IMG/VR virus record: IMGVR_UViG_3300035670_007445
Coordinates: 1-20,624 of that record
Source: a virus
DNA length: 20,624 nucleotides
Strand: one strand, 5' to 3'
Below are positions 2,064 to 18,650 of the stretch, piece by piece (the stretch's first letter is position 1; every line of letters starts with the position of its first letter). The position numbers were made by a program, and so were the translations under genes. The notes beneath the pieces were generated by a model, which did no database searches, was not told the origin of the DNA, and worked only from the letters and a program-made list of their open reading frames with translations.

Positions 2064-2905
2064 AGTTACGAGGGGCAAGGCGTGAAAGATTATTTATGAA
2101 CGAAGCAAATAATCTAACGCTAGATGCTTTTAACCAATTAGAAGTTCGCACAAAAGATTTTGTGTATTTAGATTGGAACCCCTCAAATGAATTTTGGTTC
2201 TATACCGAATTAAAAGACAAGCGTGATGATGTAGAGTTTATTACCCTAACCTACAAAGACAACGAAGCGTTGAGTGATGAAATAGTAAAAGCAATTGAAC
2301 AGCGTAAGAATAATAAATCGTGGTGGCAAGTGTATGGTTTAGGACAACTCGGTGAAGTGGAAGGAAAGATTTACAAAGACTGGGCGATAGTTGATGAAGT
2401 ACCACACGAAGCTAGGCTAGAAAGGTATGGATTAGACTTCGGCTATTCCAATGATCCAACCGCCATAGTCGCAATTTACAAATACAATGGGGGATTTATC
2501 TTTGACGAAATAACTTTTCTAAAAGGACTAAGCAATAAACAGATAGCGGATATTTTACAAAACAACGAACGAGCCTTGGTTATCGCTGATAGTGCGGAAC
2601 CAAAAAGCATTGATGAGATTAAAAGCTACGGTGTGAATATTGTGCCGGCGGTTAAAGGTCCAGGATCAATTACGCAAGGTATCCAGTATATCCAAGAGCA
2701 AAGATGCTCAATGACAAAACGCAGTGTAAACACAATCAACGAGTATCGCAATTACTTATGGCAGACTGATCGTAACGGCAAGATACAAAATATTCCCGAT
2801 GTCGTCTTTGATCACGCAATGGATGCGATAAGATATGGGCTGTCAAATTATAAACCGCCAATAGTAAATCCTTTCAATAACGATAAACAAAACTTTTTTA
2901 GATAA
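1739..2905 (+). CDS. terL: Terminase large subunit (ATPase-nuclease)
   Basis: This is the DNA-packaging motor and headful or cos nuclease, acting at the portal of the prohead. With the start at 1739 it has 388 residues. The Walker A motif GGTSASKT is at 24-31, a Walker B-like RLFMNEANN at about 117-125 and a coupling-type YLDWNPSN at 143-150. The RNase H-like nuclease carries likely acidic residues D233 (GLDFGYSNDP), D284 (VIADSAEP) and D358/D362 (FDHAMDA). ATG 1775 (MAMKKRIR) is an equally plausible start, since the first 12 residues overlap the TerS-like frame and family members often begin just before the Walker A strand. The 5' part is the second copy of the tandem duplication. The gene ends TAA-T-ATG into the portal gene. 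Confidence 0.93.
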   Translation: MPFQRTTATDKIMAMKKRIRAIAGGTSASKTISILLYLIHLAQSDKKPTLTSIVAESIPHLKRGAMRDFKMILLEHNYWKDALWNATDSIYTFETGSKIEFFSTDNGDKLRGARRERLFMNEANNLTLDAFNQLEVRTKDFVYLDWNPSNEFWFYTELKDKRDDVEFITLTYKDNEALSDEIVKAIEQRKNNKSWWQVYGLGQLGEVEGKIYKDWAIVDEVPHEARLERYGLDFGYSNDPTAIVAIYKYNGGFIFDEITFLKGLSNKQIADILQNNERALVIADSAEPKSIDEIKSYGVNIVPAVKGPGSITQGIQYIQEQRCSMTKRSVNTINEYRNYLWQTDRNGKIQNIPDVVFDHAMDAIRYGLSNYKPPIVNPFNNDKQNFFR

Positions 2906-2906
2906 T

Positions 2907-4607
2907 ATGCTACAAGATGAGAAAATCTGGGAGAAAGTACAAAAGGTAATTGATAGTGCTACCAATGATAGCATTCAACTTATTAACGCTGACAAACAAA
3001 GTCAAGCGCCTTTTTTGTATAACCAGAGAGAATTAGTAAGACGAATTAACTTCTACGTAAATGATCGCTATTTGGAGCGTGATAACAACGCTATATTCTG
3101 GAATATCGCCACGCCTCGCATACCGCATTTTTCGAAATTATTACAATTTGACACGAAAGACTTTTTGCCGATGGGTGAGGGTGAGCTTAATATGGTTCAA
3201 GCGTGGGCGTTAAGAATTAAAGCTCGTGAGTGGTTTAGAGATGAAGGTTTTTATCAGACATTAAACGACTTAGCTATTGGACTAGCTACCTATGGCGGCT
3301 GTGTTTGGAAAGCAGTAAAAGAAGATAAAGAAATGTGCTTAGAAGAGTGCAAGCTCGGTAATCTTTATTTTGATCAAGCGGCTGATGATATCAAAGACAC
3401 TGATGTTGTTGAAATGCACTACCTATCACAAAATGAACTTTTAGAAAAGCGTAGCATTTGGAATAATGTTGATGATATTTTCGGCAAAGAAATGAAAGAT
3501 GGTCGTTATGAGATTTGGGAATACACCGGCATTTTAATTGAAAACCAAGAGCCAGTCTTAAAACACATTATCGGCTATGGATCAGGCGACCAGTACGTAG
3601 AACTTTGGAACGAAGAAATTGACGAAGAGGACAATCCATACGAGTCATTTAGACTTGGCAAATATAACGGTCGCTTTTTAGGCGTTGGTGTTGTAGAAAG
3701 ACTTTTTAAGCTACAAGAACGTGCTAACGAGTTAGTTAACCAGAACGCTGATACTACTCGTATTGCCTCGCTCTTACTCTTCAAGTCCGCTAATATGGAC
3801 TTGACCGGTAATGTTTTAGAGCAAGCGATAAACGGTCAGATTGTGCCAGATGAAACCTTCCAGCAAGTTGGTATCCAAAATACAGGTATCAATTTATTTA
3901 TCCAAGAATTACAACTCATTAACCAGCAAGCTGATAAACTGTGCTTAACTCCTGAAATTATACAAGGTGAACAAGCACCGAGTGGCACAACATTTAGAGG
4001 CTTAGCTGTAATGAACGCCGCCGCAGAAAATGCTTTCACAATTTATCGCCAAAATCTAGGTGAAAAGGTTGGTGATATTTTAATGAAGTGGATATTCCCT
4101 CAAGTTATCAAAGGCTGGAATAAAGAAAGTTTCATTGAAATAAAACAAGATGACGTTGATGTTGAAGCCTATGATAAAGCAGTTATAAATTATATCGCCA
4201 AAGAAAAGATGTTAGGTGGTGAAGTCGTAACGGAAGAGACTTTGACTAAGATCGCCGAAGATTTTCAAAATGAAGTGGGGCGTGTTGGTCGTAAAATTGA
4301 GATTGGTCCTGGATTCTTTGACTTCAAGTTTGGATTCAAATTACAACCGACAAGCGAGACTGGCGATAAAATGGCAATGAACGATGCAATGTATAATGCC
4401 TTACAGATGACCGGTGCTAACCCCGCTTTAACCGAAGTGCCTTTGTTCAAACAATACTGCGAGAATAACGGCATATCATACTGGAAATTAAAACCCAAAC
4501 AGAAAGAAGAGTTAATGGCGATGGCACAAGGACAACAACAAACCGGTGCATTGCCTCCACAAAAGAAGCCAGATGCTTTGTTAGCGTCAGCTCAACCACA
4601 AATGTAA
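2907..4607 (+). CDS. Portal protein
   Basis: Portal proteins form the dodecameric ring at one capsid vertex through which DNA is pumped. I assign this 566-residue protein from its size, its position directly after TerL and before scaffold and coat genes, and family-like features: a mixed alpha/beta first half with the helical clip-like stretch FRLGKYNGRFLGVGVVERLFKLQERANELVNQ near residues 248-280, then QGEQAPSGTTFRGLAVMN around 350-370, which resembles the channel-helix region of podovirus-type portals. The C-terminus is Gln/Pro-rich and low complexity. Both ends use the TAA-T-ATG junction. I cannot tell from sequence whether it belongs to a podovirus- or siphovirus-type head. Confidence 0.85.
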   Translation: MLQDEKIWEKVQKVIDSATNDSIQLINADKQSQAPFLYNQRELVRRINFYVNDRYLERDNNAIFWNIATPRIPHFSKLLQFDTKDFLPMGEGELNMVQAWALRIKAREWFRDEGFYQTLNDLAIGLATYGGCVWKAVKEDKEMCLEECKLGNLYFDQAADDIKDTDVVEMHYLSQNELLEKRSIWNNVDDIFGKEMKDGRYEIWEYTGILIENQEPVLKHIIGYGSGDQYVELWNEEIDEEDNPYESFRLGKYNGRFLGVGVVERLFKLQERANELVNQNADTTRIASLLLFKSANMDLTGNVLEQAINGQIVPDETFQQVGIQNTGINLFIQELQLINQQADKLCLTPEIIQGEQAPSGTTFRGLAVMNAAAENAFTIYRQNLGEKVGDILMKWIFPQVIKGWNKESFIEIKQDDVDVEAYDKAVINYIAKEKMLGGEVVTEETLTKIAEDFQNEVGRVGRKIEIGPGFFDFKFGFKLQPTSETGDKMAMNDAMYNALQMTGANPALTEVPLFKQYCENNGISYWKLKPKQKEELMAMAQGQQQTGALPPQKKPDALLASAQPQM

Positions 4608-4839: not shown

Positions 4840-4920
4840 AATAATAAACTTTGGTTATCGCCACCATTCAAAAGCGACTTAGGTTCAAGGCAACCTCTTA
4901 AAATGCCGCATCTATCTGCT
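4840..4920 (+). other. Short gap with hairpin before scaffold gene
   Basis: This 81-base gap contains a 5-bp hairpin, AGGTT/AACCT (4881-4885 with 4892-4896, loop CAAGGC), ending 24 bases before the scaffold ATG. No T-run follows, so it is not an intrinsic terminator. An in-frame ATG at 4903 could extend the scaffold protein by six residues. I see no promoter. Confidence 0.35.
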
Positions 4921-5451
4921 ATGTCAGAAGAGAACAACCAGGATCAAAATCCTGATGAGGAGACAACCTCTCAAGAAACCGAGGAACTTGACCTCGCACC
5001 AGAGGAGGAAGGTGAACAAGTATCAGGCGACAGTGGTGAACCTGATGCAGAAGCTCTTAAAGCGCAAATTGCGAAAATGAAAGAGCAGAACGCAAAACTT
5101 TACGCCCGCTTAAAACAAGCGGAAGTAAAGAAACCCACAGAAGCTGTTAAGACCAGCAAATCTAATTCTAGCCTTACTCGTGAAGAGGCGATACTTTTCG
5201 CCAAAGGCTACACCGAAGAAGAAGTTAATCTCGCTATGAAACTTGCAAAAGTTAATGGCGTGAACGCTCTAGTCGCTGCCGAAGATGATTACTTCAAAAC
5301 TGTGGTTGAGAAACGACAGAAGAAGGAACAATCAGCTAAAGCATCGCTCGGTGCATCATCTGGTGCAAATAAGTTTGCTCCGAAATCAGTCGGTAAAATG
5401 ACTGACGAAGAACACGCTAAGTATTTCCACGAAGTAATGAGTAGGGTGTAA
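4921..5451 (+). CDS. Capsid scaffolding protein (putative)
   Basis: Scaffolding proteins guide coat assembly and leave or are cleaved before DNA packaging. The 176-residue product fits by composition and place. It has an acidic, low-complexity N-terminus rich in Glu, Asp and Gln (residues 1-45), a coiled-coil stretch ALKAQIAKMKEQNAKLYARL (about 48-67), a disordered Lys/Ser linker, a compact helical segment LTREEAILFAKGYTEEEV, and a short basic and helical C-terminus of the kind that contacts coat protein. It lies directly before the coat gene. ATG 4921 is preferred over ATG 4903. Confidence 0.75.
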   Translation: MSEENNQDQNPDEETTSQETEELDLAPEEEGEQVSGDSGEPDAEALKAQIAKMKEQNAKLYARLKQAEVKKPTEAVKTSKSNSSLTREEAILFAKGYTEEEVNLAMKLAKVNGVNALVAAEDDYFKTVVEKRQKKEQSAKASLGASSGANKFAPKSVGKMTDEEHAKYFHEVMSRV

Positions 5452-5463
5452 GTTTAATATAAT

Positions 5464-6907
5464 ATGGCAACTGGATCGTTCCCTATGTAAAATCGTAGCT
5501 TTGGGGAACTAAAACCAATTCTAATATACGGCGAAAGTCCTTTACATAGGAAAACGCCTTGGAAGACGAAAGTCACCAACAGAGACTAAACGAATTGGGC
5601 TGAGAAGCAGTATGTAATAGTCCGATCTGCACCTATAAATAAAAGTGCAGAGGATAGCAGAAATGACTATCCTGTTCATTGAAAATATGCTATAATAGTG
5701 ACAGAAGTTTTAAGAAAGGAGCAGTCCCTTGGAATAAAGGAAAGAAAAGCCCTTGGACTACTAAAAGAAACCTAGAGAGAAACCATTTAATGATAGGTGA
5801 AAATGCTTATCATTGGAAAGGCGGTAAAACTACTAGGGAGAGAAAGATTTTAATGGGCCGAAAAAAGTATCAACTTTGGAGATTGGCGGTATTAGAAAGA
5901 GACTCTTGGACTTGCCAAAGTTGTCGCATAAAAGGAGAATCTTTACACGCTCATCATATAAAACCTTGGGCTTCATATCCAGATTTAAGATATGATGTTG
6001 AAAACGGCGTAGCACTTTGCGTTCCTTGCCACCAATTATTGCATTCAATGAATAGTAACAAAAAATGACAGCTACTGAGACAAATACAACCCTAGCCTCA
6101 GTAATCCCTGGTTTGTTCGCCGAAAAAATGAACAACTGGTATAAAGACGAGTTAGTCTGTGCTAAATTTTTCACTGATTTATCAGCTGACATCTCTAGCG
6201 GTGCTAAAACTCTCTTGATCCCAAACATTACAGCAATGACTGCTCATAGCAAATCAAATGCTACAGTCGTTACTCTAAATAACCCGACAGACAACCAAGT
6301 CACTTTAACAGTGGACACTTGGTATGAATGTTCTTTCGCAATTGAAGACAAAGAAGCTGAACAGGTCAAGAAATCATATAACTATATGAGTGTCTTGGCT
6401 AAAAACGCAGCTGCTACTGTCGCGCAGGCTTACGAAGATGCAATCATCGCTTTGTTTGATAACTTCTCACAGACCGTTGGTACATCTGCTGCTGCTCTTG
6501 CTGACAGCAACATCCGTCGCGCTATCCAATACTTGGATGCAGCTAACGCTCCTAAGAACGATCGTGCTTTCATCTTATCCACCAAACAAGTTTGGTCAGA
6601 TTTAATGGGCATCGATAAATTTACCTTAGTTCAGAATGCACCTGGTGCAGATCCTGTAATGAAAGGTATGGTTGGTTACTTATATGGTATCCCTGTAATC
6701 GCTTCAAACCGCATTGGCACAACCTTAGGTTCTGCCCAAGGCTGTTTAGCTCACAAGGACGCTATCGTACACGCTTCTACAATTATGCGCGTTCAATCCA
6801 ACTACATCCCACAATACTTATCAACAGTAACAACTGCTGATGTAGTATTTGGCTGCATTGAGAACCGTGACTCAAGTGGCGTATGGATCAAGACGGCTGC
6901 CTCGTAA
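5464..6907 (+). CDS. Major capsid protein, gene split by a group I intron
   Basis: I read this coat gene as two exons. Exon 1 is 5464-5484 and encodes MATGSFP. Exon 2 is 6068-6907 and starts with the codons for TATETNTT. Splicing keeps frame and gives 286 residues. Without splicing, the first frame meets TAA two codons into the intron. The protein resembles P22-type or N4-gp56-like coat proteins in size and layout: an N-terminal arm, then strand-rich segments (KTLLIPNITAMTAHS), a spine-helix-like stretch (NYMSVLAKNAAATVAQAYEDAI) and a C-terminal domain ending in AAS. It follows scaffold, as expected. A gene caller would begin the protein falsely at ATG 6065, whose three bases are the last three of the intron. 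The start has the TAATATG context. Confidence 0.88.
5485..6067 (+). ncRNA. Group I self-splicing intron in the coat gene
   Basis: Every core helix is visible. P1: exon GTTCCCT (5478-5484) with GGGGAAC (5503-5509), ending in the U-G pair at the splice site. P3: CCAATT/AATTGG (5515-5520, 5593-5598). P4: GGCG/CGCC (5530-5533, 5555-5558). P5: TCCT/AGGA (5538-5541, 5548-5551). P6: TTGG/CCAA (5559-5562, 5576-5579), with P6a closed by GAAA. P7: GACTA/TAGTC (5584-5588, 5618-5622). P8: GCT/AGC closed by GAGA (5599-5608). P9: TCTGCAC/GTGCAGA (5626-5632, 5645-5651). P9.1: GGATAG/CTATCC (5652-5657, 5667-5672). P10: GTAGCT (5495-5500) with exon-2 AGCTAC (6070-6075). The last intron base is G, as required. 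It carries an HNH gene after P9.1. Confidence 0.95.
5679..6068 (+). CDS. Intron-encoded HNH homing endonuclease
   Basis: The enzyme should cut intronless coat genes near the insertion site and so spread the intron. The 129-residue protein begins with the PWNKGKK segment often seen before HNH domains of intron endonucleases, then a basic linker with WKGGKTTRERK. The HNH core has zinc ligands CQSC (about 90-93) and CVPC (about 117-120), and the catalytic HAHHIKPW and NGVAL between them. The only start that keeps the PWNKGKK part is TTG 5679. The first in-frame ATG is 5790. Its stop TGA (6066-6068) spans the 3' splice site, so its last base is the first base of coat exon 2. Confidence 0.88.
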   Translation: MKICYNSDRSFKKGAVPWNKGKKSPWTTKRNLERNHLMIGENAYHWKGGKTTRERKILMGRKKYQLWRLAVLERDSWTCQSCRIKGESLHAHHIKPWASYPDLRYDVENGVALCVPCHQLLHSMNSNKK

Positions 6908-6951
6908 AATTTAGCTAAGATTAGACAAAATATTTAACTTGGTTGGAGCTA

Positions 6952-7053: not shown

Positions 7054-7611
7054 ATGTCTAATTGTCATAGTTGCGGAGCGGAGTTGAGTGGATTAAAAAA
7101 AATGTTCTGCTCAAAAAAGTGCAAAGCTAAAAAGAGGTGGTCAAGAATGACCGAAGAAGAAAGGGAGAAACAGAGAGAAGAAAACAGAGCAAGGTATGCG
7201 CAAAACAGGGTGGCATACCTAGAGAACAAAAGAGAATATTATCAGAAAAGAAAAAAAGAAATTAAGAAAAAAAATTCTTTGTATAAGAAGTTAAACCCTT
7301 GGACTGATAGAAAATACGCTTTGAGTATTAAAGGTAAATACAGAGATTACAAAAAAGGAGCAAAGAGCAGAGGATTAAAATTTGAAATCACATTAAAAGA
7401 TTTTTCTGATTTTAAAGGAGTGAAGTGTCATTACTGTGGCGATGTATTTGAAGAAATTGGCATAGACAGGGTAGATAACAAACTTGGCTATGTCAAAGGT
7501 AATATGGAGTCTTGTTGCCCAATATGTAATAGAATGAAACACGCATTCACTAAAAAAGAGTTTGTAGAAAAGTGCATAAAAATAGCACACAACCACATTA
7601 ACACAATTTAA
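7054..7611 (+). CDS. Free-standing HNH endonuclease with zinc finger
   Basis: This 185-residue protein begins with a zinc-knuckle region, CHSC at residues 4-7 and CSKKC at 19-23. A long, highly charged, likely helical linker follows (residues 30-90, rich in Glu, Arg and Lys). It ends in an HNH-type nuclease: CHYC (about 125-128), then GIDRVDNKLGYVKGN with the conserved Asp-Arg and Asn, and CPICNRMK (about 152-159). It is not inside a recognisable intron, so it is probably an intergenic homing endonuclease. It has its own promoter candidate (6952-6980) and a start in the TAATATG context, although that TAA ends no gene. It is unrelated outside the metal core to the intron enzyme. Confidence 0.8.
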   Translation: MSNCHSCGAELSGLKKMFCSKKCKAKKRWSRMTEEEREKQREENRARYAQNRVAYLENKREYYQKRKKEIKKKNSLYKKLNPWTDRKYALSIKGKYRDYKKGAKSRGLKFEITLKDFSDFKGVKCHYCGDVFEEIGIDRVDNKLGYVKGNMESCCPICNRMKHAFTKKEFVEKCIKIAHNHINTI

Positions 7612-8070: not shown

Positions 8071-9150
8071 ATGTATAGCCCGAATGTCTTTATGATCGGA
8101 AGTGGGTATGGCGGTTGTAATAAGGTGCGTATAAACTTACCGGCTGAACACAATGGTTTTCGTATGGCTCAACCGTCACTTAGTGGCGATAGAAGACCAA
8201 CCAATGAGATAAGAGACGAACTCGCAGCCGCTGACGTCGTAGTGTTCCACCGAGCCGAAGAACAGACTTACCACGATTTATCCAAGATGCTTAAAAAAGA
8301 CGGCAAGAAAATAGTAATGGATAATGATGATACTTTTGTCCTTGAAGATAACCACCCATTAGCACAGTTCAACGCCGATGGCACAGTCCAAGATAACCTG
8401 AAAAGACGAAGTGACAATATAGACGAGTTTATGCGGATGTGCGATATGGTAACGACTACGACAAAGACACTCGCCGAAGAATACAAAAAGCATAATAAAA
8501 ATGTAGTGATATTGCCAAACTGTATTGACCCTGATGACTGGGACACACCATTACGAAACGATGGCGACAAAGTGAGAATAGGCATATTCGGCAGTGCCGC
8601 CCTAGAATACGATTACTTGCACTTAAAAGATTATATCCGAGAATTAAGCGAGCGACCTGACATAACAATTTGTATGATGGGCTTAGGTGATAAAGAACAC
8701 CGCCGAAAGAACCCAAAAGTCACACAGGTTTTTCACGAAGAGTACGCTTTCTGGGATAGTATCAAGATTGAACACACAGCTTGGATGCCAGTTCACTTAA
8801 TGCCACAAGCCTTGAATGAAATGCGACTAGACATAATGCTCATACCACGCAAGGACAATTACTTTAACCGGTGCAAATCAAACTTAAAGTTTTTAGAGAG
8901 TGCGATGTGTGAAGTACCAGTGGTGGCTCAATCGTTTACAGATGGCCCTTATGAAGAGATAGAAGACTGGGTAACAGGCGTGCTGATAAAAGACAACAGC
9001 GAGTGGAAAGAAAAGGTTGAAAAGCTGATTAAAAATAAAGAGCTTAGACGACAAATAGGTAAGAACGCCAGAGAGTATGTCATCAAGAATTACGACATCG
9101 CAGACCACGCCTATAAATGGGATGAAGCGTATAAATCACTATTCAAATAA
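8071..9150 (+). CDS. GT-B glycosyltransferase (family 1/4-like)
   Basis: This enzyme should move a sugar from a nucleotide-sugar donor to a glycan or protein in the host cytoplasm. The 359-residue length fits a GT-B enzyme. The C-terminal half carries the donor-binding pattern: KVRIGIFGSAALEYDY (about 168-183), DITICMMGLG, and the PRKDNYFNRCKSNLKFLES stretch (about 262-280), which holds the conserved Glu of GT4-type enzymes, followed by EVPVVAQSFTDGPYEEI and a family-typical end (LRRQIGKNAREYV). The N-terminal half has DADVVVFHRAEEQ-like acceptor-domain features. It opens a run of sugar genes inside the structural operon. Donor and acceptor are unknown. Confidence 0.82.
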   Translation: MYSPNVFMIGSGYGGCNKVRINLPAEHNGFRMAQPSLSGDRRPTNEIRDELAAADVVVFHRAEEQTYHDLSKMLKKDGKKIVMDNDDTFVLEDNHPLAQFNADGTVQDNLKRRSDNIDEFMRMCDMVTTTTKTLAEEYKKHNKNVVILPNCIDPDDWDTPLRNDGDKVRIGIFGSAALEYDYLHLKDYIRELSERPDITICMMGLGDKEHRRKNPKVTQVFHEEYAFWDSIKIEHTAWMPVHLMPQALNEMRLDIMLIPRKDNYFNRCKSNLKFLESAMCEVPVVAQSFTDGPYEEIEDWVTGVLIKDNSEWKEKVEKLIKNKELRRQIGKNAREYVIKNYDIADHAYKWDEAYKSLFK

Positions 9151-9151
9151 T

Positions 9152-9463
9152 ATGTTAGTCGAAATAAAAGATAAAAAGTTAGAAGGAATTTTAAGCGAAC
9201 GGGCTGTATATCACAAAGAGGTCGGCGAAATAATGGAAAAGATGATGGCCCTTGATAAAGAAAAAACCAAGCTCGCCTATAAGTTAGACAAGCTCAAAGA
9301 AAAGACCAAAGTAATAATGGATAAATTAAATCCAAAGCTAGAAGAGTTTGAGTTTATCTCACGGGTATTTATGGAAAAAGGTGTCGCTTATTACGAGGTG
9401 CTAGATCAGATTGAAGAGTATAAAAAAGCAATTAGAGAAGATAGAGTCAATAAATTGAAATAA
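9152..9463 (+). CDS. Coiled-coil hypothetical protein (103 aa)
   Basis: Residues 15-65 form a long, highly charged heptad-like helix (KEVGEIMEKMMALDKEKTK, then KLAYKLDKLKEKTKVIMDKL). A second helix runs through the C-terminus. No catalytic or membrane motif is seen. The start is ATG 9152, in the TAA-T-ATG junction after the glycosyltransferase. An upstream in-frame ATG at 9077 lies inside that gene. It might be a structural or scaffold-like partner. The role is unknown. Confidence 0.65.
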   Translation: MLVEIKDKKLEGILSERAVYHKEVGEIMEKMMALDKEKTKLAYKLDKLKEKTKVIMDKLNPKLEEFEFISRVFMEKGVAYYEVLDQIEEYKKAIREDRVNKLK

Positions 9464-9464
9464 T

Positions 9465-9878
9465 ATGCGAGTCGTTTTAACCGCCGCTGTAATGGACCTT
9501 TGCCACGAAGGGCATATACGTCTGCTAAAAGAGATGCGAGCCAATGGCGATATTGTGGTGGTGGTTTTACACGACGATAAAAGCGTATATGAAATAAAAG
9601 GAAAGATACCGGTTCAAGATGTTTTACATAGGATGAACAATCTGCATATTACAGGCTTAGTGGATAGGGTGCTAGTTACGATGAACGTTGATCCAGCTGA
9701 TAAGTTCCAAGAGGTAATAAGCACCTATGGAGAAAAGAATATCCTGTTTATGCGAGCAGATGATAATAAGAACTTTCCAGGTAAATGGATAATTGAAAAC
9801 TATAACATACCAATTAAGTATGTTAAATATACCAAAGGCGTGAGCAGTAGCTTAATCAGAAAGAAATTATGCAAATAG
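9465..9878 (+). CDS. Cytidylyltransferase-like nucleotidyltransferase
   Basis: Enzymes of this fold activate a phosphorylated polyol or choline with CTP (TagD/GCT, PCT), or a sugar phosphate with ATP (RfaE). The 137 residues match a minimal single domain. HEGH at residues 14-17 is the HxGH nucleotide-binding signature. An IVVVVLHDDKSVYEIKG stretch (30-46) follows, and SSSLIRKKL near the C-terminus is a variant of the ISTTxIR motif. GKIPVQD fits the GRxP-type substrate loop. Lying five genes-lengths from a LicD-like transferase, it probably supplies CDP-linked donor to it. The precise substrate cannot be read from the sequence. The last ten bases overlap the next gene. Confidence 0.8.
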   Translation: MRVVLTAAVMDLCHEGHIRLLKEMRANGDIVVVVLHDDKSVYEIKGKIPVQDVLHRMNNLHITGLVDRVLVTMNVDPADKFQEVISTYGEKNILFMRADDNKNFPGKWIIENYNIPIKYVKYTKGVSSSLIRKKLCK

Positions 9879-10168
9879 TATTCCTACTATTTCTACACCA
9901 CTTAGCCGATGTCGCTTTGCAACCAAGCTGGCTCATAAAGCAAAAGTATCATTGGTTCAGAGTGTACGAGCATTCGTTTATCTGGGCAGGGGTGATTTCA
10001 ATGGGGTTGTACTGGCTAGATAATTTCAGTCTTTGGAAGTTCATTTTTCTACTTGTCGGACATTTCGTAATTGATTTTATTAAGTATAAGCACAAGCAAT
10101 TCTGGCTTGTTTATCCCGATCAGTTTTTACACTATATACAAGTTTTAATAGTATGGACCATAAAGTAG
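9869..10168 (+). CDS. DUF3307-like membrane protein (99 aa)
   Basis: Three hydrophobic segments are visible, at about residues 3-12, 35-52 and 57-70, and a fourth near 85-97. Conserved-looking polar residues fit DUF3307: HHLADVALQPSW (10-21), GHFVIDFIKYK (64-74) and the late DQFLH. DUF3307 has no established biochemical function. In this island it could anchor or supply the sugar-modifying enzymes at the membrane, which is inference. The start overlaps the end of the cytidylyltransferase gene by ten bases, and its own end overlaps the LicD-like gene by 16, so the three genes are translationally coupled. Confidence 0.7.
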   Translation: MQIVFLLFLHHLADVALQPSWLIKQKYHWFRVYEHSFIWAGVISMGLYWLDNFSLWKFIFLLVGHFVIDFIKYKHKQFWLVYPDQFLHYIQVLIVWTIK

Positions 10169-10689
10169 CCCTAGAAAACCTAAAAGATATACGGGACGTG
10201 CTAAACCAGTATCCAGTAAAGTGGTGGCTAGACGGTGGCACTTGTATCGGAGCGGTTAGAGAAAAAGATTTTGTCGCTATTGATGAAGATACTGATATTG
10301 GGGTGCTAGAAGAGACTTATAACGACGAGATTACACAAAAGATTTTAGATAAAGGTTTTCACCTAGAAGCAAAATACGGTACAAGAGATAAAGGCTACGA
10401 ATTAGCTTTTGTGAGAAATGGAGTTAAGACAGATATATTTTTCTACTACTTGAAAGACGGTAAAAGGTGGTACGCGATGTACGCCGACAAGATGATCCCA
10501 ATGGTTTATCCGGCAGACACTTTTGAAGAGCAAATGGACATAGATTTTCTAGGGCATACTTTCAAAATACCAGTTAAATACGACCAGTACCTAACGATAA
10601 AGTATGGTGACTATATGACCAAGATTAAGCGTGAAGATTGGGACTGGACAACCGGACCGAAAAATATAGATATGAGTTTTATAAAGTGA
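10153..10689 (+). CDS. LicD-like phosphotransferase
   Basis: LicD family proteins transfer phosphocholine, or polyol phosphate in related forms, from a CDP donor onto a sugar. Residues 24-50 contain the hallmark WWLDGGTCIGAVREKDF and then DEDTDIGV, matching the family LDGGTLLGAxRxxxfIPWDDDxDI pattern with its metal-binding acidic cluster. KTDIFFYYLKDG (about 94-105) and the late LTIKYGDYM also fit. The usual length is 250 or more residues, and 178 is compact. With the cytidylyltransferase just upstream, activation and transfer steps are both encoded. The target glycan is unknown. The gene ends TGA-T-ATG into the next transferase. Confidence 0.82.
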   Translation: MDHKVALENLKDIRDVLNQYPVKWWLDGGTCIGAVREKDFVAIDEDTDIGVLEETYNDEITQKILDKGFHLEAKYGTRDKGYELAFVRNGVKTDIFFYYLKDGKRWYAMYADKMIPMVYPADTFEEQMDIDFLGHTFKIPVKYDQYLTIKYGDYMTKIKREDWDWTTGPKNIDMSFIK

Positions 10690-10690
10690 T

Positions 10691-11332
10691 ATGGACATCA
10701 CAATACTGATAAAGACGTTCAAAAGGCCACGAATGCTAGACCGATTACTGACTAGCATAAAAGAATACGCCCCAGATATTAAAATAGACGTACTAGACGA
10801 TAGCGATACTAACATAGGTATATCAGCAGGACGCAATCAGTTAGTCGCTAGGTGCAAAACAAAATACTGTATGATACTGGATGATGATTGTATATTCACG
10901 CCAAAGACGAACCTCGAAAAAGCGATTAAAATATTAGAAGAAAGAGATTTAGACCTATTGGAAATACAAGTGCCAGGTTTGAATTATAGAGGACATTTTA
11001 AGATAAAAAACGACGAGATAGAAGCTGTTCAAGCAAACGAAGGAGAATATTTTGATTTTATAACTAACATATTCGTTGCTAAGACTGATGTTTTAAGAAA
11101 ATATAAATGGGATGACAGGATGAAGATTGGAGAGCATACATCATACTTTTTTACGCATAGGGGTAAAATGAAAATAGGAACGACGGACCAAGTAACAATA
11201 AGGCACGAACACGTTAGCCCGCCTGGATATAATATCTACCGAAGCAGAGGCGAGGATTATGTAAAGATTTTTATGCGAGAAAATGGCATTAAAAGACTCC
11301 ATACCGTAACAGGTGAATACATAGTAGTATGA
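10691..11332 (+). CDS. Glycosyltransferase resembling beta-1,4-GalNAc transferases
   Basis: The 213-residue protein has a GT-A layout. An N-terminal strand (ITILIKTFKRP) is followed by AGRNQLVARCKTKYCMILDDD, with the metal-binding DDD at residues 64-66. The arrangement, then FDFITNIFVAKTDVLRKY and TTDQVTIRHEH near the end, recalls animal beta-1,4-N-acetylgalactosaminyltransferases of family GT12, as I remember their RN...DDDF...ARTD...H pattern. That likeness is from memory and needs a profile search. A general GT2 enzyme is the fallback. The ATGA overlap (11329-11332) couples it to the deacetylase. Confidence 0.72.
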   Translation: MDITILIKTFKRPRMLDRLLTSIKEYAPDIKIDVLDDSDTNIGISAGRNQLVARCKTKYCMILDDDCIFTPKTNLEKAIKILEERDLDLLEIQVPGLNYRGHFKIKNDEIEAVQANEGEYFDFITNIFVAKTDVLRKYKWDDRMKIGEHTSYFFTHRGKMKIGTTDQVTIRHEHVSPPGYNIYRSRGEDYVKIFMRENGIKRLHTVTGEYIVV

Positions 11333-11940
11333 TTTTCCGCAATGATGACCTAGCCTATGGGGTGGATATAGAACAATACAAAGAAATACAGTCAATTTTT
11401 GAAGGATTTGGGGTAAAAGAGATGTATTCGGTGGTCGCAATAGGTGGTAATTTATACGCTGGCGACCCATTTACAATGGCAAACAACGATTTAGAAAGGT
11501 TTTTAGGCACAAAGTTAGTATATGAAGACGAAAAAGTTGATGAGTTTATTAAAAATAGCCTAGCAAAAGGTCACACAATATCGTTACACGGTTGGCAACA
11601 CACTAAAATAGCTAAATATTCGTATAAAGACCAGCTAGACAATATAAGTAGTGCTAAAAAGTTGCTAGAAGATAGGTATAAAGTAGAAATAAAGTATTTT
11701 GTGCCACCATTTAACAATTACAATAGCGCAACCCAAGAAGCGTGTAGCAAACTGGGGCTTAAAATACTAGGCACAAGTGAAAATCAGTTAGAAAGAGCGG
11801 TTAGAGAAGACTTGAAATTACCGGATAATGATTTTACTTGGTATCACGCTTGGCGGTTTTATCAAAATGGCTTAACCCCTGAAAAATTGAAAGATTATCT
11901 AACAAAGTATGATATCAATAATAATTCCAATTTGGGGTGA
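11329..11940 (+). CDS. Polysaccharide deacetylase (NodB-like)
   Basis: Polysaccharide deacetylases remove N- or O-acetyl groups from sugars using a metal held by Asp-His-His. Here N5-D6-D7 (FRNDD) supplies the first aspartates, and ISLHGWQH gives H87 and H91 in the HxxxH spacing. FVPPFNNYN resembles the RPPF-type motif 3, and YHAWRF near residue 174 is a fitting late histidine motif. At 203 residues it is a bare catalytic domain with no signal peptide, so it would act in the cytoplasm, probably on sugar intermediates of the island. It overlaps its neighbours at both ends: ATGA upstream, and 32 bases with the GT2 gene downstream. Confidence 0.78.
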   Translation: MIFRNDDLAYGVDIEQYKEIQSIFEGFGVKEMYSVVAIGGNLYAGDPFTMANNDLERFLGTKLVYEDEKVDEFIKNSLAKGHTISLHGWQHTKIAKYSYKDQLDNISSAKKLLEDRYKVEIKYFVPPFNNYNSATQEACSKLGLKILGTSENQLERAVREDLKLPDNDFTWYHAWRFYQNGLTPEKLKDYLTKYDINNNSNLG

Positions 11941-12490
11941 TAAATATAAAGAGTTTTTACCAAAAGCAATTGCGAGTATTGAATCCCAGACATATAAAGA
12001 TTATGAGATTATTATATCGGATCAAGCGACTGACCTACCAACTGCCCGTAATCAAGGGATAAAAAAAGCTAAGGGTGAGTATATTCTGTGTTTAGATGCT
12101 GATGACCAATTACACCCAGAGTTTTTAGAAAAAACACTTAAAGCAAACGATGATATAGTCGGGACTTGGTGGAAAGAGTATGGGGACTACGAAAGTGAGA
12201 TTAAAACACCAGAGTTACACCCCAAATTGCCGCACTTTTTAGACTATAATCGTATAACTTGTACAGCACTTTACAAAAAAGAAGTCTGGGAAACAGTGGA
12301 AGGATATGACGAAACAATGAAAGACGGGCTAGAAGATTGGGATTTCTGGTGTCAAGCCTTAAAAGCTGGTTATACGGTAACGATTGTCCCTGAAATACTA
12401 TTCTTTTACTGGAAGCACGGAAACACAATGATTGAAAGTAATCGCCAAAATCACTTAAAGATTTATAACTACATAAAAAGCAAATTATAA
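11909..12490 (+). CDS. GT2-type glycosyltransferase
   Basis: This is a GT-A enzyme of the GT2 superfamily. The N-terminal ISIIIPIWG strand, SIESQTYKDYEIIISDQ (nucleotide-binding half) and ARNQGIKKAKGEYILCLDADD (DADD at 63-66) are textbook features. The late EDWDFWCQAL at about 142-151 is the catalytic ED/W region. Its length (193 residues) is short but complete for a single-domain enzyme. The start lies inside the deacetylase gene, 32 bases before its end, so the two are coupled. It ends TAA-T-ATG into the adaptor gene, which marks the return to virion genes. Confidence 0.85.
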   Translation: MISIIIPIWGDKYKEFLPKAIASIESQTYKDYEIIISDQATDLPTARNQGIKKAKGEYILCLDADDQLHPEFLEKTLKANDDIVGTWWKEYGDYESEIKTPELHPKLPHFLDYNRITCTALYKKEVWETVEGYDETMKDGLEDWDFWCQALKAGYTVTIVPEILFFYWKHGNTMIESNRQNHLKIYNYIKSKL

Positions 12491-12491
12491 T

Positions 12492-13208
12492 ATGGTTTAT
12501 TCAGATACAACTAACCTAGTCGGAATTATCCAAGAAGAAGAACGCTTGACTGGTTTAGGATATGCCGCTATTTCTGGTTCGACAACCAACTTAAAAGAGT
12601 TCACCTCACTAAATAACATTGTCAGTCACCGCATTTGGCACACTATTTTTACTTCCAATGGGAATTGGCAGTATGATGACTCGAATAAAAGTGATTTGCC
12701 TGCTGGTGCGACTAGCTTAGTAAGTGGGACAGCAACTTATGCTTTGCCGACAGATGCATTAACTGTAAAACGAATTGAAGTAAAAGACGCTAATGGTGAA
12801 TGGAGTGTTTTAACTCCTATTACTCTTGAAGAAATAGACGCTAAAGCAGAAACTTTAACCGATCAAGGCACACCACGTTTTTATCGGTTAATTGGCCAAA
12901 CAATTGAGCTATTTCCTACCCCAAACTACGCATCATCTGGCGGTTTGAAACCTTATTTTGACCGTGATTGTGTAGAATTTGCGACAACCGACACGACAAA
13001 AACACCTGGTTTTGCTTCACCTTATCACAGCATTATCGCTCTGGGTGGTGCTATGGAGTGGTTAAAAGTACACACGCCAACGAGCGCGCAACTACAATAT
13101 CTACGAGAAGACTACGCTAAAATGGAAAAAAACCTGAAAGAATTTTATGGTATGCGTTTTAAGGCAAAAAAACCAATGGTAGGGCGTGCTTATTCATCAT
13201 ATAAATAA
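12492..13208 (+). CDS. Head-tail adaptor-like protein (putative)
   Basis: I assign this 238-residue protein by position and character, with moderate confidence. The first part (MVYSDTTNLVGIIQEEERLTG) and the helical C-terminus (YLREDYAKMEKNLKEFYG, then a basic, Tyr-rich end) resemble phage adaptor or tail-tubular-type proteins. The middle has alternating strand-like stretches (YALPTDALTVKRIEVKD, then FYRLIGQTIELFPTP), as in gp4-like adaptors. Such proteins extend the portal ring and hold the DNA. The gene lies between the sugar island and the tail genes and ends three bases before the next micro-gene. Confidence 0.55.
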   Translation: MVYSDTTNLVGIIQEEERLTGLGYAAISGSTTNLKEFTSLNNIVSHRIWHTIFTSNGNWQYDDSNKSDLPAGATSLVSGTATYALPTDALTVKRIEVKDANGEWSVLTPITLEEIDAKAETLTDQGTPRFYRLIGQTIELFPTPNYASSGGLKPYFDRDCVEFATTDTTKTPGFASPYHSIIALGGAMEWLKVHTPTSAQLQYLREDYAKMEKNLKEFYGMRFKAKKPMVGRAYSSYK

Positions 13209-13211
13209 AAT

Positions 13212-13340
13212 ATGTGGCTTAAACAACTATTTTGTATCCATAATTGGAAATTTTGGATGACCGGCGTAGATGAAGAGAAGGGCGCGGAGTGGGAAATATA
13301 CAAGTGTACAAAATGTGGAAAAGTCCGAGATATAATTTAA
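13212..13340 (+). CDS. Zinc-binding microprotein (42 aa)
   Basis: A 42-codon gene too short for most callers. It has a plausible zinc site made of CIH at residues 8-10 and CTKC at 32-35, with Trp residues around the first site (WLKQLFCIHNWKFW). The length and final CTKCGKVRDII recall a tiny zinc ribbon. It begins three bases after the adaptor stop, in an AAATATG context, and ends in the exact TAA-T-ATG junction, which supports it as a real gene. The role is unknown. Confidence 0.6.
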   Translation: MWLKQLFCIHNWKFWMTGVDEEKGAEWEIYKCTKCGKVRDII

Positions 13341-13341
13341 T

Positions 13342-13518
13342 ATGGCCTATACAAACGACACAAAACCAAGTGCGGCAACCTATTCTAACGATACCAAGCC
13401 TAGTGTCGCCAATGAGTTTTTATTAAAAGAGGATGCTTTCTACCTACTTTTAGAAAGCGGCAGTAAGATAGTCATTAACTACGGTATAAATTACTCATAC
13501 GATACAAAACCATCATAG
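13342..13518 (+). CDS. Repeat-bearing minor protein (58 aa)
   Basis: The protein carries three copies of a short motif: NDTKPS at residues 5-10 and 16-21, and YDTKPS at 53-58. A hydrophobic middle (FYLLLESGSKIVINYGI) separates the last two. Similar DxKPS repeats are found in small phage tail-associated proteins (recalled, not searched). It is held by TAA-T-ATG upstream and TAG-T-ATG downstream, so it is almost certainly translated. It may be a minor structural or fibre-attachment peptide. Confidence 0.6.
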   Translation: MAYTNDTKPSAATYSNDTKPSVANEFLLKEDAFYLLLESGSKIVINYGINYSYDTKPS

Positions 13519-13519
13519 T

Positions 13520-17112
<3,593 letters not shown>

Positions 17113-17133
17113 AATAATTTAACTAAAAATACT

Positions 17134-17433
17134 ATGGCATATACCATAAACATCAGCGAAGAGTTATTAGACTTCGCCACCGCCCAAGCCCAAGCAGATA
17201 ATGTCTCGCTTGACTTGTGGTGTGAAAGAAAAGTAAATGGCGTTTTGAAACGCTTAATTAAAGACGGTTTAATTGAAAAGATAAATGGTGCTAAACTTGA
17301 TCAGATTACTGTTTTCACAACAGCAGTGGAGAGTGCTAAGAGTGGTATCGTTGCTGCGGAGATTGAAAATGCCGCCAAGATAGCGGTTTTAGAACCAGTT
17401 GCTGAAACAGAAGCAACTTCAACACCTAAATAG
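17134..17433 (+). CDS. Small hypothetical protein (99 aa)
   Basis: The protein starts with a short strand (AYTINISEELL), continues through mostly helical Ala-rich segments (FATAQAQADNVSLDLW, then ESAKSGIVAAEIENAAKIA) and ends in a Pro/Thr tail. No known family comes to mind. Its place between the fibre and the LamG lectin, and the TAG-T-ATG junction into the latter, suggest a virion or fibre accessory role. It may be a fibre chaperone or an attachment factor, but this is unproven. The upstream gap is 21 bases and AT-rich. Confidence 0.6.
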   Translation: MAYTINISEELLDFATAQAQADNVSLDLWCERKVNGVLKRLIKDGLIEKINGAKLDQITVFTTAVESAKSGIVAAEIENAAKIAVLEPVAETEATSTPK

Positions 17434-17434
17434 T

Positions 17435-18178
17435 ATGGCTTTAACAGACAATCTTGTCGGTTATTGGAAGTTAGATGATAGCGGTGATGACGAAATTAGC
17501 ACCAATGATTTAACTTTGACAAACGGGAGTTATGTCACTGGTAAAATAAACAATGGTGCTGATTTTACTGGTGCGTCTAACAGTTATGCAACATTTACGA
17601 CTAAATTATCAACTGTTTGGGACAGCGCTTATACAATTACAATGTGGGTAAATGCTGCTACATTAGATACAACTAATGGTAACGTTTTATTGTGGCCTGG
17701 CGACAGAAATCAACAGCACATTATCAACAACATAGAAAAAAAATTAGAGATAACTACCTACGATGGGACTGCAGCAAGTACTGTTGGGACAACAGTTTTT
17801 TCTACTGGGACTTGGTATTTTATTGCCTTTCAACGAATAAGTGGTACAGAGGGCAAGGTTTGGGTGAATGGGGCTGACGATACATCAACAACTAAAGCAA
17901 TGCGAAATCCAGCGGGGACATTAACACAAGATTTTAGATTAGCGAGCAGGCAAGACGCAACCGCTGCAAACTTTGACGGCATAATCGATGAAGTCGGTAT
18001 TTGGTCTAGGGCTTTATCATCAACTGAAATATCTACTCTGTATAATTCTGGCAATGGTCTGGCCTATCCTTTCTCGTCTTCTGCAATTAAGACGATAAAT
18101 GGTTTGAGCCGTAGCTCAGTCAAGACTGTAGGGGGTCTCGCTATCGCAAGTTTAAAAAGTTTTAATGGTCTTCAATAA
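17435..18178 (+). CDS. LamG/concanavalin-like lectin protein
   Basis: The 247-residue protein has a laminin-G-like jelly-roll. Clear signatures are LVGYWKLDDSG at the start, NGADFTGASNSYATF, YTITMWVNAATLD, TGTWYFIAFQRISG and the closing NFDGIIDEVGIWSRALSSTEI, all typical of LamG-3 domains that bind sugars. The last 30 residues are three short repeats ending IKTINGL, VKTVGGL and LKSFNGL, which I take as a coat- or fibre-binding tail. ATG 17435 is chosen by the TAG-T-ATG junction. It probably decorates the virion or helps it adhere to glycans of the host. Confidence 0.82.
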   Translation: MALTDNLVGYWKLDDSGDDEISTNDLTLTNGSYVTGKINNGADFTGASNSYATFTTKLSTVWDSAYTITMWVNAATLDTTNGNVLLWPGDRNQQHIINNIEKKLEITTYDGTAASTVGTTVFSTGTWYFIAFQRISGTEGKVWVNGADDTSTTKAMRNPAGTLTQDFRLASRQDATAANFDGIIDEVGIWSRALSSTEISTLYNSGNGLAYPFSSSAIKTINGLSRSSVKTVGGLAIASLKSFNGLQ

Positions 18179-18179
18179 T

Positions 18180-18650
18180 ATGCCGACTGGTGTTTATATA
18201 AGGACAAAAGAATACAGAGATAAGATGAGCAAGGCTGGTAAAGGGCGCATTGTTTCTGAACAAACAAGAAAAAAAATTAGCTTGTCCAATAAAGGGGTCA
18301 AGCCTAAACCTTGGACTGTTGAGGCTTCTGTAAAATCAAGAAAAGGTAAGCATCTCACAGATGAGCATAAGAAAAAAATAGGCAGAAGTGGGGTCGATAG
18401 TAAATCTTGGAAAGGTGAAGACGCTAGTTATGCCGCCAAACACATCTGGGCTAAATACTGGCTTAATGATCCTGGGAGTTGTGAATGCTGTGGGACTAAA
18501 ATAAATCTCCAGTGGTCAAATAAAGATCATAAATACCAAAGAGTAGCGACTGATTGGAAAAGACTCTGTGCTAAGTGCCACCGACAATATGATGACTTTA
18601 CTTTTGGGAAGCGAGAGCCTTGGAATAAAAATAAAATAAATATTACTTAA
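18180..18650 (+). CDS. HNH endonuclease with NUMOD3-type N-terminus
   Basis: The 156-residue protein opens with repeated basic helices: TKEYRDKMSKAGKGR, SEQTRKKISLSNKG, and DEHKKKIGRSG. This is the NUMOD3 DNA-binding pattern of homing endonucleases. The HNH part has CECC at about 98-101 and CAKC at about 127-130. NLQWSNKDHKYQRV lies between them, with an Asp-His in place of the usual His-His, and the protein ends in PWNKNK. The start is ATG 18180, in the TAA-T-ATG junction after LamG. No intron is visible around it, so it is free-standing. It would cut at its own vacant site in related phages. Confidence 0.8.
   Translation: MPTGVYIRTKEYRDKMSKAGKGRIVSEQTRKKISLSNKGVKPKPWTVEASVKSRKGKHLTDEHKKKIGRSGVDSKSWKGEDASYAAKHIWAKYWLNDPGSCECCGTKINLQWSNKDHKYQRVATDWKRLCAKCHRQYDDFTFGKREPWNKNKINIT

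Follow-up and report, generated by a model that had tools for sequence, protein, structure and literature searches.

A predicted group I intron after the seventh codon of a viral major capsid protein gene, and related introns in phage head genes

The window analysed here is the whole of a 20,624-base virus record (IMGVR_UViG_3300035670_007445). Its head module runs in the order terminase, a gene in portal position (phrog_332, head-tail adaptor), an ORF in the place of a scaffold gene (4903-5451, zero family matches) and the major capsid protein (MCP) gene. Mechanical ORF calling places the capsid gene at 6065-6907. The following features were located, all on the + strand:

5464..5484, +, exon 1 of the MCP gene, codons 1-7 (MATGSFP), directly continuous with the second part in 62 of 85 relatives
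5478..5509, +, P1, exon GUUCCCU with guide GGGGAAC (strands 5478-5484/5503-5509) and a U.G pair at the splice site (U5484.G5503)
5485..6067, +, group I intron, 583 nt, with core helices, P1 and terminal G; same-site homologues in relatives L020, L030, L098, L101 and L113
5510..5679, +, catalytic core, P3 to P9.1
5515-5521/5592-5598, +, P3
5530-5533/5555-5558, +, P4
5538-5541/5548-5551, +, P5
5559-5562/5576-5579, +, P6
5565-5567/5572-5574, +, P6a, with a GAAA loop
5582..5623, +, P7, 5584-5588/5618-5622 plus G5582-C5623 around bulged A5583 (strands 5582-5588 and 5618-5623)
5599-5602/5608-5611, +, P8
5627-5632/5645-5650, +, P9
5651-5656/5668-5673, +, P9.1
5495-5500/6070-6075, +, P10, intron half GUAGCU
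5679..6068, +, HNH endonuclease frame in the 3' part of the intron, mechanical TTG start, first in-frame ATG at 5790
6065..6067, +, false capsid start ATG, the last three intron bases
6068..6907, +, exon 2 of the MCP gene including the stop (phrog_267, 4e-24; PF19821, 7.3e-7)

Direct reading of the sequence gave exon 1 as ATG 5464-5466 plus six codons, the last being CCT 5482-5484. Codon 8 is ACA at 6068, so that exon 2 begins with A6068, and joining the two exons yields the frame MATGSFP|TATETNTT. The junction was examined in 85 MCP records, made up of 28 from a scan with the exon 2 protein and 57 new ones from a deeper alignment scan in which the best 80 of 386 relatives were taken. The gene was uninterrupted at this place in 78 records and interrupted in seven (L020, L098, L101, L113, L074, L028 and L099). 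In 62 of the 85, the protein runs from its start through [FLY]P into [TS] at the predicted joint without a break, the start residue being M or, in a few, the V, L or I that GTG, TTG or ATC encodes; another 16 were uninterrupted with other N-termini. Comparison with these intronless relatives established the predicted junction between codons 7 and 8 and set the last intron base at G6067. The original prediction of a hidden seven-residue N-terminus in frame with the coat protein was thus borne out by the relatives that are continuous across the joint.

The start codon itself varies in this capsid family. It is ATG in most close relatives, GTG in L003 and L004 and TTG in L012, and ATC takes its place in six relatives (L002:3886, L006:5980, L008:5382, L010:5400, L014:5980 and L020:5408). 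L008 and L010 have a stop just upstream of the ATC, with no other usual start between. The portal, adaptor and terminase genes of the contigs with an ATC start begin with ATG where readable.

L020, L030, L098, L101 and L113 have homologous introns at the codon boundary that is interrupted in the window. Four of them belong to the 85 capsid-scan relatives (L020, L098, L101, L113), and L030, found through its HNH gene (72% identity), lies outside that set; with the window and L030 added, the presence of the intron is sporadic. Numbered in each gene, the intron follows codon 4 in L098, L101 and L113 and codon 7 in L020 and L030. These introns, together with the intronless relatives, fix both splice sites that had been proposed. 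Exon 1 ends in TTTCCT in L030 and L101 vs TTCCCT elsewhere at this site, and the guide reads GGGAAA vs GGGGAA, a change from C-G to U-A that touches both strands. The 6-bp P10 of the window was not found by eye in the five same-site relatives.

Two further kinds of interruption occur in the same MCP family. In L074 an intron of the same type as in the window interrupts the gene after codon 21, separating ...IIP from EIWG; the last exon bases, ATCCCT, are similar to the TTCCCT found at the main site. The introns of L028 and L099, close to codon 70, are of another type. A location so close to the start of an MCP gene had been called unusual; the near-start position stands and has parallels in the homologues after codons 4 and 7 and in an intron of another type apparently after codon 5 in L034. 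That intron (RF00028, 59.2 bits) lies with an HNH gene inside it in an SU10-type capsid gene (L034:2340-3307; PF17236, 4.4e-68).

All core helices from P3 to P9.1 that had been claimed could be located in the window. G5584-C5622, beside bulged A5583 in P7, is presumably the guanosine site. For the segment 5470-5680 the folding energy is -59 kcal/mol (z -4.18), and one of 200 shuffles folded equally well. Related cores were collected from viral contigs with a 28-letter pattern written from core letters only; a first, stricter pattern had given zero matches there. Thirty-one distinct compact cores were extracted from the pattern loci and the capsid relatives, and 29 were aligned (alignment A4), L127 and L227 being set aside because of a long insertion upstream. 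On this alignment RNAalifold, unaided, recovered P3, P6, P6a, P8 and P9.1, and 21 of the 26 pairs were changed on both sides in some sequence. With the helices of the window applied to the 29 cores, 86.2% of 1146 cells paired. Double changes affected 33 of 43 pairs in 253 cells; shuffles averaged 73.8 such cells, with 0 of 500 reaching 253, and sliding the helices gave 36 to 74.

Covariation across the 29 cores was found for P3, P6, P8, P9 and P9.1. P4 and P5 can be drawn in the window, and in the family alignment P4 pairs in 56% of cells and P5 in 33-60%; part of P9 is also poor, and we think that the likely reason is misalignment there. P7, with its bulged A and G-C pair, was identical in 29 of 29 aligned cores, which is uninformative because the search pattern demanded those letters. 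The intron of phage LittleE, fetched by accession, reads CAGACTA..ATAGTCG vs GAGACTA..ATAGTCC in the window: both sides of the outer P7 pair have changed, C-G replacing G-C. Collectively, these comparisons indicate that the predicted core is supported by covariation.

Model R2 was built from 22 cores, leaving out the window and its capsid relatives. It scored the window at 109 bits with E 8e-23, an E-value that flatters and a score that is partly built in, because the training sequences were fetched by the 28-letter pattern, which the window meets by construction. Scores for L113, L101, L098, L020, L030 and L074 ranged from 143.6 to 60.1 bits. Model R1 gave a weak second match in the window at 2888-3015 (15.2 bits, E 0.017); it was absent from the R2 matches and was taken as chance. 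The same-site relatives and the covariation agree with the original prediction of a coat gene split after codon 7, and on this comparative evidence we regard the assignment of 5485-6067 to a group I intron as confirmed.

A search with the Rfam group I model had been proposed as a check, and it found no RF00028 match. Rfam at gathering gave zero matches in the whole window, and its group I models gave zero matches in 5380-6200 up to E = 10. This is not decisive, because RF00028 also misses the family relatives tried, the annotated intron of phage Tuc2009 and the intron of L099 (the last two at gathering). Eighteen loci were tried at gathering; none of the 15 with the family core was matched, LittleE and 12 other loci likewise stayed unmatched, and L113 and L218 gave zero matches up to E = 10. 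RF00028 does match L028 (69.3 bits) and L034. Usual group I introns have ..AAGAUAUAGUCC in J8/7. The window has AUGUAAUAGUCC and other members GAUGCRAUAGUCC, and this altered J8/7 is a likely cause of the Rfam misses. The standard RNA library gives no warning at a capsid start that gene callers tend to misplace.

The misplacement comes about because the window intron ends in AAAAAATG, which creates the ATG at 6065. As the original prediction anticipated, the ORF list starts the coat gene at this ATG, which consists of the final intron bases. Among the six same-site genes it is private to the window: L020, L030 and L098 end in AAAACTG (CAAAACTG), L101 in AAAATTG and L113 in ATAAAG. Translation of the unspliced RNA might nevertheless re-initiate at the overlapping HNH stop (ATGA) and produce the capsid protein from ATG 6065, the upstream MATGSFP being a relic. 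The overlap with TGA 6066-6068 and the TTG at this place in L101 are consistent with such a start. We consider it very unlikely, since the place holds no usual start in L020, L030 and L098 (CTG) or in L113 (AAG), no Shine-Dalgarno-like sequence was seen directly upstream of ATG 6065, the protein start is conserved among intronless relatives and the P1 pairing is maintained through compensatory change.

The intron also encodes an HNH endonuclease, on which the original prediction is silent. Its HNH domain is complete (PF01844, 4.9e-10 over profile positions 1-46 of 47), and its stop, TGA 6066-6068, reaches one base into exon 2. Alignment with the HNH gene of L030 showed a 171-nt gap that takes in the L030 start codon, so the start region is missing from the window. 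The gene may be expressed from a later start or may be decaying, and because it lacks a good start, present mobility of the intron is doubtful. A promoter-like TGCTATAAT noticed by eye at 5688-5696 was not listed by a sigma-70 scan, which returned 6 sites vs 6.4 in shuffles. Among relatives, L098 retains an HNH stub only and L028 a broken HNH frame; L002 and L014 have a related free-standing HNH gene just upstream of the capsid gene, and L006 resembles a deletion remnant of such a gene. An intron at the capsid start of L002, L006 and L014 was considered and rejected, as the HNH gene or remnant lies between genes and R1 gave zero matches there. A homing cycle with loss is an established idea, and the HNH picture across relatives is as expected from it. 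The endonuclease probably spread the intron by homing, and its gene in the window would since have begun to decay if no later start is used.

These observations bear on two further explanations. A free-standing HNH gene could have been inserted, with the RNA fold arising by chance; free-standing copies do adjoin this same site, between the scaffold-position and MCP genes of L002 and L014. The insertion in the window, however, falls between codons 7 and 8 and its core matches R2 at 109 bits, whereas R1 finds zero matches in L002, L006 and L014, and comparison of the relatives disfavours this explanation so strongly that its probability is practically negligible. Alternatively, the intron may no longer be able to splice and the window may represent a defective genome, as the missing HNH start region and the difference between AAAAAATG and the CAAAACTG of L020, L030 and L098 could suggest. 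We hold this to be extremely unlikely, since the core helices are intact, the terminal G and P1 are kept and the capsid frame is open. As a whole, the data are almost certainly best explained by an MCP gene split by a group I intron that is predicted to splice codon 7 to codon 8.

From these sequence comparisons we infer that the intron splices in this phage by the following steps. The intron RNA would fold into the usual group I core, and in P1 the guide sequence would pair with the last bases of exon 1, the U.G pair included. A guanosine bound in P7 would attack after U5484, and the freed exon 1 would then attack after G6067, joining codon 7 to codon 8 to give MATGSFPTATET... An unspliced message would yield an eight-residue peptide only, because TAA is the second intron codon (CCT|ATG TAA). 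Similarly, all six same-site genes have an in-frame stop by the 18th intron codon at the latest. Exon 1 being 12 to 21 nt long in these genes, P1 would be expected to lie beneath a ribosome positioned on the start codon.

Introns in phage capsid genes were already known. The LittleE report documents splicing of an MCP intron with RT-PCR on infected cells, the capsid band size and an N-terminal sequence read across the joint; it leaves the intron type open, with group I as the most likely, and names a capsid intron in phage Tuc2009 alongside (PMC3706429). The window therefore adds another member to a known class. In the accessible literature, which covered few subscription journals and included PMC3706429, PMC12363816, PMC11835236, PMC6669764 and PMC8541194, we came across no MCP gene reported to have an intron within its first codons; LittleE was the sole worked phage capsid intron found there, with Tuc2009 named beside it.

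Sequence comparison indicates that the window intron is kin to the experimentally spliced one of LittleE (JF937101). The latter scored 43.8 bits with R1, as the sole R1 match in its genome, and 40.4 bits with R2. Both introns lie in an MCP gene, contain an endonuclease gene, belong to the same core family by R1 and R2 and carry the same GCAGAAATG in the P9.1 place. Unlike the window intron, that of LittleE is found deep within the gene, shortly after the protein processing site, and its endonuclease gene is on the opposite strand. In Tuc2009 mp4 (AF109874) an annotated group I intron with an ORF inside likewise splits the major head protein gene. Its first part is annotated as 168 nt, which puts the intron no further in than the end of codon 56, and unlike the window it reached only 13.4 bits with R1 (E 0.29) and gave zero R2 match. 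The introns of L028, L034 and, by eye, L099, which we take to be of the td-like subgroup of group I, also interrupt MCP genes, L028 and L099 in the MCP family of the window and L034 in an SU10-type MCP; none of the three was listed by R1, and R2 gave only 13 bits for L028 and L034.

The 28-letter pattern occurred in at least 119 stretches of viral contigs, with at least 131 matches. Leaving out the window and L144, 129 matches were followed to a downstream ORF, and 119 of the matches listed had one. Without L020, L030, L074, L098, L101 and L113, which came from other scans, 113 ORFs remained, and at least 25 of these 113 listed matches precede an MCP exon. Among the matches listed, 14 of these MCP cases match phrog_1357, namely L154 and 13 of the 17 de-duplicated, scanned members of a cluster of 19; at least three of the 17 match endonuclease families. 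L187, L210 and L240 cluster with the MCP family of the window; L216, L228, L130, L176, L194 and L213 match major head families, and L171 and L206 cluster with two of them. A further 15 of the matches listed belong to portal clusters (10 with L159, three with L153, two with L174). Only one of nine scanned members of the L159 cluster reaches a portal PHROG; mean identity in the alignment of this cluster is 56%. Among the listed matches, the P22 portal model is matched by 6 of 99 downstream ORFs, the host genes also include one tail protein, RtcB and QueC, and many of the remaining ORFs are endonuclease frames, recognised by home-made motifs, or unnamed. Twenty of the 54 host-ORF families were scanned through one representative each; 12 of these 20 matched (eight major head, three portal, one tail) and eight matched nothing. 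Placement in head genes is therefore to be read as a tendency among the matches listed and not as a rate. The intron family seems to be widespread in viral contigs and often to lie in head genes.

Two named phage records contain further members. In MW202674 the intron is flanked by P22-type coat protein CDSs (R1 93.2 bits), and in CRP-118 by ribonucleotide reductase CDSs (R1 100.7 bits). The pattern was also present in 15 genome contigs, all matched by R1 (46.5 to 145.5 bits). In L247, L251 and L253 the R1 match falls inside a 23S rRNA match, and in L255 between 23S and 5S. L247 and L253 are CPR MAGs, L251 is a Woesearchaeota MAG and L255 a third CPR MAG; LAGLIDADG-like frames lie near the introns of L247, L253 and L255. 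In L043, L045 and L046 a phrog_9953 major head exon, scanned in L045, comes after a weaker intron relative (36.7 bits) and a LAGLIDADG-like frame lies upstream; no exon 1 was found there.

A joint reading of these data can be offered as a tentative proposal, rather less probable than its opposite. There may be a large group I family that goes unseen by Rfam and has two hallmarks, the altered J8/7 (RUGYRAUAGUCC) and an invariant P9.1 loop, GCAGAAAUG. It would be concentrated in phage head genes (portals, and MCPs from at least seven PHROG families), and CPR bacteria and one archaeon would have members in their 23S rRNA genes. In the capsid family of the window it would recur after codon 4 to 7, where the initiating ribosome would cover P1; splicing and the start of translation would have to compete, and capsid output could be tuned in this way. 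In these genes a ribozyme would share 12 to 21 bases of RNA with an initiating ribosome, which makes them natural cases of such overlap. With the intron family seeming common, metagenome capsid and portal genes may be shortened or split in databases.

BLASTN of 5400-6950 against named phages gave zero matches. The capsid protein had zero relatives in genome contigs, and the host was thus not found.

Several other features of the window were observed. Tandem copies at 1372-1671 and 1745-2044 (84% identity, 373 apart) cover the start of the terminase large subunit gene and take in the end of the preceding gene as well (52 nt, 90%), the first copy giving a truncated ORF at 1369-1893. Two further endonuclease-like genes occur at 7054-7611 and 18165-18650 (endonuclease VII type, phrog_1035, 5e-17; NUMOD3-bearing). 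Both gave zero Rfam or R2 matches and are for this reason taken as free-standing, although an intron of unknown type might conceivably be present at either place. A block at 8071-14599, between the capsid and the tail-type genes, encodes a glycosyltransferase, a cytidylyltransferase-like protein, LicD and a polysaccharide deacetylase, with an SU10-type adaptor gene among them. It is followed at 14602-18178 by an 836-aa collagen-repeat protein, a small ORF and a laminin-G/lectin-like protein; the two larger proteins are perhaps parts of a tail fibre.
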